NCBI GenBank assembly: GCA_017941035.1
Contig: JAGAXG010000019.1
Span: forward strand, 1-44,328
Origin: a bacterium
GTDB taxonomy: Bacteria; Cyanobacteriota; Vampirovibrionia; Gastranaerophilales; Gastranaerophilaceae
Reading direction: 5' to 3'
Length of the DNA: 44,328 bases
Shown here: positions 7,273 to 10,112 of the stretch, piece by piece
Position numbering within the stretch: position 1 is the first letter of the stretch
How the letters are laid out: each line of letters opens with the position of its first letter
Notes under the pieces: model-generated
Database searches by the model: none
What the model saw: the letters and a program-made list of their open reading frames with translations, nothing else
Told to the model about the DNA's origin: nothing
Made by a program: the position numbers and the translations under genes

Positions 7273-8589
7273 TTATTTATCAAAATTCATTTGAAGCCAA
7301 TTGAATCTATGATTTCCTACTAAATTTGTATTCAACGCGAGTTCTCTTGCTTCAGTATTATCTTCAAGACTAAATTCCGGATTGCAAATAACCTTAAATT
7401 TGTGGCTTTCACTTATCTTATCAAGTTCGAAAGTGTTATACCTTTCTGAAATTTTCTGAGAAATAACTTCAGATAAAGATGAAGAATGATGTTTTCTCAA
7501 TGCTTTATCTAAAGCGAAACCCAAAGGTCCGGTTACAATGAGTCCATTTGCACCTTCATTTTCTTTAATTACTGCGAATTTTGCCAGACTTGATGCATAT
7601 TTGTCAATTGCACTTCGCCTTGCATGTTTAAAATCTTTCGAAAAATCATCTGTTACCTTTATACTATTTTCATCGTAGAGCGTATATATAGGTTTTAAGA
7701 CTTTTTCACTTGCAGGATCAGAAGAATCTTTAGGAGCTAATTTTTTTAATGATAATAAAAGATTTTTTAATTTTTCACCTTTTGCACCTTTTGGAAGTAT
7801 AAAAATTTCTGAAGTAACAACTTGACCGACTCCACAATTTGCTATTTCAGGAACAATTTGTTTATTTATACCCATCGCATTACAAAAATTAGTTATTAAT
7901 TTAGATGCTGAAGCTCCTGCATTTGCTATTTTAACAAGTCCTTGCTCATCAGTAAAATAACTGCTACCTGTTGCATCAACAATTGCTGAAGTTTCGGATA
8001 CGGCACGAATATTAGAAATTCCGCATCCTCCGCCAGTTATAGCAACCGAATAATGATCTCCGGCATGAAGCATATTTTTTTCATTTAATTTATTTGCTAT
8101 TGCAAGACCACTTCCCATAGAATCTTGAAATAATCTTACATTACAATTTTTCGCAATTTTTACGCCTGCTTCTTTTAAAAATTTTGGCATTAAATTAAAA
8201 TCAATATCACTCATTCCAAGAGAATTTTGTCCGCGAATATTATCAGCATATAAAAGTTTGTTATTATAAACAGATCCGGGCATAAAAAATACAAGATCTT
8301 TTACTGTTTTGTCTTTTGGGTTGATTTTAAGCCCCTCTTGGTAGCATTGAGCCATTTTCCCAGCCAATTTTCTTAAAAAATCTTCAGCAGAAGAATAAAC
8401 TCTTTCACCTTGCGTATTTACAATATTTTTCATTTTATAAATTGTTTTATTACTCTTATTTGGAATAATAAGAGCTTTTAAAGAATTTTCGCCAACGCTT
8501 CCTCCTACATCGATTAAAAACCTGCTTGAAAACGAAGGATTATTTTTATATTGACCATTACTAAAACTTGAAACAGGACTTATCTGCAT
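7273..8589 (-). CDS. Divergent ROK/glucokinase-fold (ASKHA) protein
   Basis: A 438-residue protein. LIDVGGSVGE near residue 25 and VAITGGGCGISNI near 185 look like the two phosphate-binding loops of the sugar-kinase/Hsp70/actin fold, and GANGLIVTGPLGFALDKAL near 350 resembles the adenosine motif of ROK proteins. Zinc-binding ROK cysteines are not evident. A carbohydrate or amino-sugar kinase is plausible, but the substrate cannot be read. The start is the ATG at 8589, with GGGGGT 8 nt upstream, rather than the TTG at 8604. The N-terminal 25 residues (MQISPVSSFSNGQYKNNPSF) precede the fold and resemble the N-terminus of the 202-aa membrane protein at 28328, suggesting a shared lineage-specific signal. 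Confidence 0.7.
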   Translation of the reverse strand: MQISPVSSFSNGQYKNNPSFSSRFLIDVGGSVGENSLKALIIPNKSNKTIYKMKNIVNTQGERVYSSAEDFLRKLAGKMAQCYQEGLKINPKDKTVKDLVFFMPGSVYNNKLLYADNIRGQNSLGMSDIDFNLMPKFLKEAGVKIAKNCNVRLFQDSMGSGLAIANKLNEKNMLHAGDHYSVAITGGGCGISNIRAVSETSAIVDATGSSYFTDEQGLVKIANAGASASKLITNFCNAMGINKQIVPEIANCGVGQVVTSEIFILPKGAKGEKLKNLLLSLKKLAPKDSSDPASEKVLKPIYTLYDENSIKVTDDFSKDFKHARRSAIDKYASSLAKFAVIKENEGANGLIVTGPLGFALDKALRKHHSSSLSEVISQKISERYNTFELDKISESHKFKVICNPEFSLEDNTEARELALNTNLVGNHRFNWLQMNFDK

Positions 8590-8663
8590 ATATTTTACCC
8601 CCAATACATAAATAAATATAAAAGACTAAAACCCTGTAAAAATAATTTTTGCCATTATGATAA

Positions 8664-8771: not shown

Positions 8772-9593
8772 TTATTTTGACGTTGTCAAAACATATTTAG
8801 CTGCGTTAGTTGCAGGTTCAACAGTTGCATCGTGGAATACAACAGGATAAATATCTGTCATATGGTTAGCATCTGCACCTACTGTACAAGGTGATTCAGG
8901 ATTTAAAGTAGGAGCTGTAATTGTAGCTGAACCAGTACCGCAAGCTACTTCTTTGTTAGGTAATGTTGCACCGTTTACGTCGATAAAACCGATACAGCCA
9001 TTTAATGAACCTCCAGATTTCAATTGATTATTAGTTAGAGGTGTCCCAATAGCTAAAGTACAACCTTTTGCACCTGCAGGGAATGCTATTAATGATCCGT
9101 CTGCAAGACCATACATTATATATCCGGAAGGTGCTGAACCTTCTACTCCTTCGCTATTTGATGAAGTAGCTTCATCCCCAGATCCTGCCGCGGCAGTAGC
9201 TTTACCAACTGTATATGTCTTAACTAATGTATATGTTCCACTTTTGCTTGAAACTTTAGTTGCATCTGTCCCGTAATCTGTAGCACCTGCTAATGTTCCG
9301 TTTAAAATCGCGCAGAATGTCAATTTGCTATCAGGATTGTCCTCTGCCCCTGCAACTCCATTCTCTCCTGCTGCTGTACATGCTGCTGTAGTTGCTCCGT
9401 AATCAATGTCATACTGAGCTTGTGCCATCAAACCTGCTTGGTTCAATGTTGATAATGTTTTCTTAAACTGTGATCTGAATTTTGCTGAATTTGTGTTAGC
9501 AATCAATGTTGGAATAGTCATTGCTGCAACTACGCCGATGATACCCAAAGTAATCAATACTTCTGCCAAAGTAAAACCGAATTTTTTGTTCAT
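8772..9593 (-). CDS. Pilin-like protein with class III prepilin leader
   Basis: A 273-residue protein with the short positive leader MNKKFG followed by FTLAEVLITLGIIGVVAAMT: the cleavage/N-methylation site (G6/F7), Glu at mature position 5, and the hydrophobic helix of type IV pilins and type II secretion pseudopilins. The soluble domain is Ala/Gly/Thr-rich with six cysteines and contains GCIGFIDVNGATLPNK, a motif shared in part with two other pilin-like proteins in this window. It is exported, processed by a prepilin peptidase (not in the window) and assembled at the inner membrane. Start supported by AAAGGTGA 8 nt upstream. It has a consensus promoter overlapped by a repeated operator, and its own terminator, so it is monocistronic and regulated. 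Whether it is a pilus subunit or a pseudopilin cannot be decided. Confidence 0.9.
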   Translation of the reverse strand: MNKKFGFTLAEVLITLGIIGVVAAMTIPTLIANTNSAKFRSQFKKTLSTLNQAGLMAQAQYDIDYGATTAACTAAGENGVAGAEDNPDSKLTFCAILNGTLAGATDYGTDATKVSSKSGTYTLVKTYTVGKATAAAGSGDEATSSNSEGVEGSAPSGYIMYGLADGSLIAFPAGAKGCTLAIGTPLTNNQLKSGGSLNGCIGFIDVNGATLPNKEVACGTGSATITAPTLNPESPCTVGADANHMTDIYPVVFHDATVEPATNAAKYVLTTSK

Positions 9594-9691
9594 AATCTTT
9601 CACCTTTCTTTTTTTAAAGTAAATATAACTTCCCGCGTACATAAAAGAGATAATATCCTCAATTATTGTCCATGCAGTTACGTACATTTTT

Positions 9692-9720
9692 ATTATAACA
9701 TGTTTAACATTGATTGTCAA
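9692..9720 (-). promoter_or_regulatory. Consensus sigma-70 promoter of the pilin-like gene
   Basis: On the minus strand TTGACA (9720-9715), exactly 17 nt, then TATAAT (9697-9692): both hexamers are perfect consensus. Transcription would start near 9685, leaving a leader of about 90 nt. Read on the plus strand, the overlapping TTGTCA (9714-9719) could be the -35 of the divergent XRE gene, but no good -10 box follows for it. Confidence 0.88.
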
Positions 9721-9734
9721 CATGTTTAACATTG
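9697..9734. promoter_or_regulatory. Duplicated operator between pilin-like gene and XRE regulator
   Basis: AACATGTTTAACATTG occurs twice in direct orientation, at 9697-9712 and 9719-9734, 22 nt apart (two helical turns). Each copy contains the palindrome AACATGTT. Copy 1 fills most of the spacer of the pilin promoter and touches its -10; copy 2 abuts the -35. The adjacent XRE-family gene is the obvious candidate to bind here and block the pilin promoter and possibly its own. Confidence 0.75.
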
Positions 9735-9785
9735 TTAGTTTAAAAATTCAATGGGGATAATATAAATAAGGGATGGATATTATTG

Positions 9786-10112
9786 ATGAAAAGCCGTTTG
9801 CAAGAACAACTTGGTAAAAGAATTCAATATCTGAGAAAAATTAAGGGATACAGCCAAGAATTATTTGCCGAAAAAATTGATATTGCAACTAATACACTTA
9901 GCAGTATTGAACGAGGTAATGCGTTTATGACTGCAGTTACATTGGAAAATATTGCAAAAGAACTCAATGTTGAACCTAGAGAATTATTTACTTTTTCTGA
10001 AATTGATGATAATCAAAAAAAATATGAATACATTAAAAAAAGTCTTGAATTCATAAAAGATGATGAACTAAGACTTCAAATTCTTTATAATGTTACAAAA
10101 GGATTATACTAG
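9786..10112 (+). CDS. XRE-family transcriptional regulator
   Basis: A 108-residue protein. Residues 1-65 are a Cro/CI-type helix-turn-helix: LGKRIQYLRKIKGYSQELFA, then IDIATNTLSSIERG (recognition helix) and LENIAKELNVEPRELFTF. The C-terminal 40 residues are helical and probably dimerise. The ATG at 9786 follows the TTG at 9783 by one codon; GGGATGG upstream serves as ribosome site for either. It is divergent from the pilin-like gene across 192 nt carrying a duplicated operator, which suggests autoregulation and control of the pilin. Its stop lies 7 nt from the stop of the convergent TolC-like gene. Confidence 0.9.
   Translation: MKSRLQEQLGKRIQYLRKIKGYSQELFAEKIDIATNTLSSIERGNAFMTAVTLENIAKELNVEPRELFTFSEIDDNQKKYEYIKKSLEFIKDDELRLQILYNVTKGLY

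Follow-up and report, generated by a model that had tools for sequence, protein, structure and literature searches.

A duplicated operator between a pilin gene and a divergent XRE regulator in Gastranaerophilales: a probable two-operator switch with exchangeable cargo

What controls a pilin gene whose promoter is of perfect consensus and yet is overlapped by two identical repeats? Gastranaerophilales are gut bacteria that are common but have hardly been cultured, and the locus lies on a complete contig of 44,328 nucleotides (hereafter the window) from a 1.80-Mb genome of Candidatus Gastranaerophilales. The gene (8772–9593, minus strand) encodes a prepilin-like protein of 273 residues, in which the N-terminal methylation motif of type IV prepilins or pseudopilins was recognised by PF07963 (N_methyl; 27.1 bits against a cut-off of 21.2) and TIGR02532 (22.3 against 16.3), and which is preceded by a ribosome-binding-site-like AAAGGTG (9601–9607, minus strand). 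Divergent from it, an XRE (Cro/C1-type) regulator of 108 residues is encoded at 9786–10112 on the plus strand. Besides the pilin gene, the neighbourhood comprises a gene for an outer-membrane efflux protein (OEP) and a large open reading frame (ORF) resembling transporters; none of the flanking genes examined was seen to be a restriction or modification gene of the kind that accompanies a C protein. Downstream of the pilin gene and on the same strand is an ORF of 443 residues (7273–8604) having no Pfam or NCBIfam match. The named relatives of the XRE gene come from gut and rumen metagenome-assembled genomes.

The regulator, the pilin promoter and the duplicated palindrome

From domain matches, a structure model and the alignment of homologues, the regulator consists of a helix-turn-helix domain (residues 1–70) and a two-helix C-terminal part. 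The domain matches are above the cut-offs of the HTH_3/HTH_19 type (PF12844, 40.4 against 30.2 bits; PF01381, 38.2 against 23 bits), and beyond the helix-turn-helix and the C-terminal helices no sensor domain was recognised by the domain search. ATG at 9786 is a more likely start codon than TTG at 9783, because homologues begin at the former. The structure model (pLDDT 87) was compared with solved folds over residues 2–74, so the C-terminal helices barely enter the comparison; the closest fold was that of C.AhdI (Z 13.8 over 66 residues, rmsd 0.9), with further resemblance to SinR, ImmR and P22 c2. By sequence, the best matches among solved structures were to SinR of Bacillus subtilis. The names Wmk and RstR were rejected, both scoring far below cut-off. 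A phage origin was likewise rejected, a viral-contig scan giving no relative and phage records one weak match covering less than 80% of the protein, as was a plasmid origin, none of 61 matches in plasmid records covering 80% of it.

On the minus strand, the pilin promoter consists of TTGACA (9720–9715), a 17-nt spacer and TATAAT (9697–9692), agreeing with the consensus at 12 of 12 positions, and TG before the −10 makes it an extended −10. The 1.8-Mb genome has four perfect TTGACA-N17-TATAAT arrangements in all. The 16-nt word AACATGTTTAACATTG is present in two exact copies, at 9697–9712 and 9719–9734, with starts 22 nt apart, and the whole 22-nt unit is duplicated (100/86%). A preliminary description of this DNA had reported the perfect promoter, the paired direct repeats over it and the divergent XRE gene, and each was found as described. 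The word is the sole 16-mer exactly repeated within 100 nt in the window, and none was seen in 20 Markov samples; the repeats are thus not attributable to chance. Each was found to contain a perfect 11-bp palindrome, ATGTTTAACAT (ATGTT-T-AACAT, with one central base), which the preliminary description had overlooked and which has the form usual for sites bound by XRE dimers. The palindrome at 9700–9710, hereafter O_prox, fills the −35/−10 spacer at about −20 of the predicted pilin start site. The other, at 9722–9732, hereafter O_dist, lies just upstream of the −35, which is thereby flanked by the two operators. The centre of O_dist is at about −42 from the predicted pilin start site, near 9685, and about −41 from the predicted start site, near 9768, of the regulator gene. 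The latter is served by a weak −35-like TTGTTA (9732–9737, plus strand) and a −10 of GATAAT (9756–9761, plus strand), 29 bp from the O_dist centre.

Inheritance of the operators, promoter geometry and exchange of cargo

Within its own genome the operator was found to have no further use. The exact palindrome ATGTTWAACAT has three sites, two at the locus and one inside a coding ORF (contig C28, position 5595), and the 16-nt word, which the preliminary description had proposed to seek at other promoters, is present at none of them in this genome. At one mismatch or fewer, 133 matches to the palindrome were counted against 132 for its reversed control, so that nothing points to a regulon. The idea of one in this genome was therefore rejected, and the operator appears to be private, serving no other promoter of the genome.

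Among relatives, the operator was observed to travel with the regulator. In 46 genomes of the genus, the operator pair at up to two mismatches was found only in four (G000, which holds the present locus, G001, G009 and G026), always between an XRE gene of one clade (class I) and a pilin gene; a fifth such locus, in G005, has three mismatches. The survey was extended to 383 genomes of the family using a fuller pattern, in which the two operators enclose the −35 in reverse complement, and allowing up to three mismatches. This pattern occurs in 20 genomes of 9 of the 41 genera, once in each genome, against one match for the reversed control, and each of the 20 matches is followed directly downstream by an XRE gene of the one clade. 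In the reverse direction, a profile search gave 24 XRE proteins at 160 bits or more, followed by a drop to 148.7 and then to 142 and below. Twenty of the 24 come from the same genomes as the paired pattern, and the remaining four (G005, G179, G182 and G194) have a degenerate pair. Across 382 genomes of the class the pattern was matched 15 times, always within the family, the other 106 genomes giving no match. The 16-nt word thus appears to belong to the regulator and not to the pilin. This co-inheritance in 20 of 20 cases, together with the operator filling the −35/−10 spacer, supports the earlier view that the promoter is strong, carries blocking sites and is linked to the divergent XRE. A class-I XRE, a pilin and the repeat, exact or degenerate, are found together in seven other genomes (G001, G005, G009, G026, G194, G260 and G272), so that relatives sharing the gene pair do share the repeat.

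The layout of promoters and operators was compared over 24 class-I loci. The cargo −35 matches the consensus at all six positions in 17 loci and the −10 in 19, with both perfect in 14. On the regulator side, the −35 is poor (2–4 of 6 positions), and the −10 lies 29–31 bp from the O_dist centre in all 18 dereplicated loci, against 2.7 expected from shuffled sequences. This spacing places O_dist at about −42 of both predicted start sites and O_prox at about −20 of the cargo start. O_dist has on average 0.4 mismatches and O_prox 1.0, a difference that arises partly by construction, since the best-matching site was taken as the anchor, which favours O_dist. O_prox has decayed to 3–4 mismatches in three of the 24 loci, and the cargo −35 retains only 2–3 of 6 positions in three of the 24; repression through O_prox therefore cannot be universal. 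In the 24 loci, neither a third, OR3-like operator over the regulator promoter nor any operator between its −35 and −10 was found, the best sites on that side of O_dist being scattered in position and mismatched at 2–5 of 11 bases. In addition, GTTAG follows O_dist (9734–9738 in the window) in many loci with pilin or secreted cargo, and ATGCA takes its place in four RTX-like loci.

The genes controlled are diverse. Of the 24 class-I loci, eight have a pilin as cargo, five a protein of 1232–1507 residues, three a PDZ protein or its start, two a 146-residue protein with a signal-like start, and five a small protein of 88–102 residues; one is unclear. The cargo thus need not be a pilin, and the switch would be wider in scope than the preliminary description had assumed. 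RTX repeats in the 1232–1507-residue proteins are above the Pfam cut-off in three, weak in one and unmatched in one. These five loci (L102–L106) are from rumen and other gut species, and have a nearly consensus promoter with a 16-nt spacer. The small proteins are encoded by the first genes of their cargo operons (L211, L212 and L214–L216), two of them were tested and have no Pfam match, and they could be either antagonists of the XRE or ordinary cargo.

Seven loci from two genera (L206, L207 and L212–L216) occupy one chromosomal site, with the order queF, XRE gene, sodium:dicarboxylate symporter gene; the gene families were checked in one of these loci, and the other six were assigned by matching N-terminal sequence. 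The cargo at this site, encoded between queF and the XRE gene, is a pilin in G194, the 146-residue protein in G281 and G088, a 102-residue protein in G178, an 89-residue protein in G057, and an 88-residue protein followed by one of 164–165 residues in G246 and G182. At the queF site, therefore, the cargo appears to have been swapped while regulator, operators and symporter stayed in place. Synteny was used here because the tree of 28 XRE proteins has too many open forks for cargo changes to be counted; in a grouped test the pilin and RTX rows each separated on one branch, and 14 rows were left ungrouped. In G179, G132 and G005 (L211, L218 and L221), the XRE gene has genes for phage-type integrases at a distance of 1.2–2.4 kb, and some copies of the switch are therefore likely to be mobile or carried on integrated elements.

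A probable mechanism and its alternatives

The promoters, the operators with their spacing, their co-inheritance with the regulator and the exchange of cargo can be read directly from the DNA. They are probably best explained by a compact two-operator switch, in which the XRE protein represses the pilin gene and sustains its own weak promoter, and which forms a portable unit for varied cargo. XRE dimers are predicted to occupy both 11-bp palindromes, which are separated by two helical turns and face the same side of the DNA. The dimer at O_prox, within the −35/−10 spacer and aided by the dimer at O_dist, would exclude RNA polymerase from the pilin promoter. The same occupancy would favour the weak regulator promoter, either because the protein at O_dist, about −42, touches polymerase directly, or because polymerase competing from the overlapping pilin promoter is removed, or for both reasons. 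With the pilin promoter blocked and the regulator promoter favoured, the off state would sustain itself; the pilin would normally be off, and loss or antagonism of the XRE would lead to its full expression. The XRE gene, the operators and both promoters would then constitute the portable unit, attached elsewhere to different, often exported, cargo. These steps differ in strength. Repression of the pilin by the XRE is strongly implied by geometry, conservation and co-inheritance, and self-activation of the regulator is suggested by geometry; binding by the XRE, its cooperativity and the nature of any inducer are inferences.

Could the XRE simply repress in both directions? Its dimers would then shut the pilin promoter and, more weakly, their own, giving negative autoregulation without memory. 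Many XRE regulators autorepress, and the presumed XRE −35 begins at 9732, the very position at which O_dist ends, so the geometry also fits plain autorepression. The fixed distance of the regulator −10 from O_dist, combined with a poor −35, is however the pattern expected if a bound protein helps polymerase, and the spacer between regulator −35 and −10 is free of operators; repression of both promoters is accordingly a possible but unlikely account. A further reading takes the XRE as a controller-type protein, which at low level would activate the pilin promoter from O_dist and at high level shut it through O_prox, like C proteins. The fold of C.AhdI is the closest, C.BclI and C.Esp1396I are among the best 50 fold matches, and O_dist also lies at about −42 of the predicted pilin start site. 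C proteins, however, activate weak promoters. The pilin promoter, being already of perfect consensus with an extended −10, needs no activator, and 14 of the 24 homologous loci are equally perfect, making this reading improbable.

The preliminary description had suggested a tightly switched or phase-like pilin. Its first part is supported by the strong promoter with blocking sites, and its second found little support. Variation at the DNA level, through an invertible promoter or a slipping repeat, might be sought in a 17-nt inverted repeat (88%) spanning 9494–9722 or in recombination between the two 22-nt units. One arm of this repeat, the best found, lies within pilin codons (9494–9510) and the other over O_prox and the −35 (9706–9722), so that inversion would break the pilin gene. 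As no recombinase gene adjoins, the promoter has no slippery tract and both operators are kept across genera, phase variation of this kind is very improbable. That the operator is a property of the pilin family, with the XRE an incidental neighbour, can hardly be credited: the seven other class-I loci with pilin cargo would agree with it, but no pilin was recognised beside the operator in 16 of the 24 class-I loci, and of 30 homologous pilin loci, two of them with less than 100 nt of upstream sequence, only the present one has the palindrome, 15 others having a divergent XRE of another lineage.

The proposed two-operator switch has parallels in known systems. In phage lambda, the strong promoter has one of the operators OR1 and OR2 between its −35 and −10 and the second upstream of the −35; relative to the weak divergent promoter of the regulator, this second operator is at about −42. 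The present layout matches that of OR1/OR2 with PR and PRM, having an operator spacing of 22 bp (about two helical turns), O_prox within the strong promoter and O_dist at about −42 of the predicted start sites. CI bound at OR1/OR2 represses PR and activates PRM (PMC3708714). Unlike in lambda, the switch is chromosomal, no third operator was found, the regulator of 108 residues has no CI cleavage domain, and the cargo is a pilin or another, often exported, protein instead of a lytic operon. RcoLS20 of the B. subtilis plasmid pLS20 is an Xre-type regulator acting at overlapping divergent promoters, where it represses a strong cargo promoter and its own weak promoter depends on it (PMC4207663). 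The present locus shares the regulator type and the divergent overlapping promoters, strong for the cargo and weak for the regulator, the latter being predictions here. The pLS20 system differs in relying on two operators with tetramers and looping, and in controlling a conjugation operon (PMC4207663); here only an adjacent pair of sites can be seen, with control predicted for one gene or a few. C proteins such as C.AhdI and C.PvuII are small XRE proteins exerting feedback on their own gene (PMC3695507). They provide the closest solved fold, and differ in that the present locus has no restriction or modification gene, a strong divergent cargo promoter and a C-terminal two-helix extension. SinR, of 111 residues, likewise has a helix-turn-helix followed by C-terminal helices. 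It represses surface (matrix) genes, has many targets and is accompanied by the adjoining gene of its antagonist SinI. The operator here, unlike those of SinR, appears private, and no SinI-like gene was identified at the locus.

Other pilins and other XRE lineages

Is the switch one of many? The 30 homologous pilin loci are the best of each genome, from the first 30 genomes of the genus having one. Sixteen, including the present locus, have a divergent XRE within 900 nt, or 17 if a paralogue in the same genome (L110) is added; two had less than 100 nt upstream in which the palindrome could be sought. By their recognition regions, the 15 other XREs form two lineages (ten with METTN[L/F]CKLENG and five with GIDPKN/GIDQKN) and have other intergenic words. 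Two XRE lineages other than class I are designated METTNLCKLENG and GIDPKNISRIE. The genome of the window has 47 prepilins and 30 HTH_3 matches above cut-off, and four of the 47 (on contigs C10, C46, C30 and C27) have a divergent XRE, against about 0.2 expected by chance. Three of these pairs, with other intergenic words, are at C46:6800–7422, C30:58696–59070 and C27:6303–6783; the C46 pilin is 88% identical to that of the window.

From the profile-search list, which is longer, the best 30 XRE proteins and 40 others were fetched. For a wider view, 95 distinct XRE proteins, 72 of them outside the class-I clade, were left from 96 loci after merging identical ones. The strict two-palindrome layout, with other half-sites (AGATT/ATATT), was found for four of the 72 sister-class XREs, against 0.29 expected, and by eye many others are divergent from pilin-like, secreted or glycosyltransferase-like genes. 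That only four of the 72 show it nevertheless tells against the two-operator account. These data support, and do not prove, a family of private switches.

A bolder reading is that these genomes contain a repertoire of lambda-OR-type switches that are mutually orthogonal and can be exchanged, every one with a recognition helix and an operator of its own and serving a single surface gene among dozens of paralogues. As each switch would be self-sustaining, individual pilins or adhesins could be held on or off heritably without a change in DNA, and switches and cargoes would be shuffled independently by genome exchange. This reading is, on present data, rather doubtful. Should the proposed two-operator switch work in the way described, it would show how a surface repertoire can be regulated one gene at a time, through exchange of a regulator–operator unit in place of global regulation or promoter inversion. 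It would also supply a naturally occurring collection of small orthogonal repressors whose operators are known. A literature search found nothing in print on how Gastranaerophilales control their many pilins, and no fitting paper was among the results listed for an XRE–pilin switch. The number of pilins can be considerable: the 2.2-Mb genome G005 has 57 matches to the window pilin at an E-value of 1e-25 or better, an unusually large repertoire.
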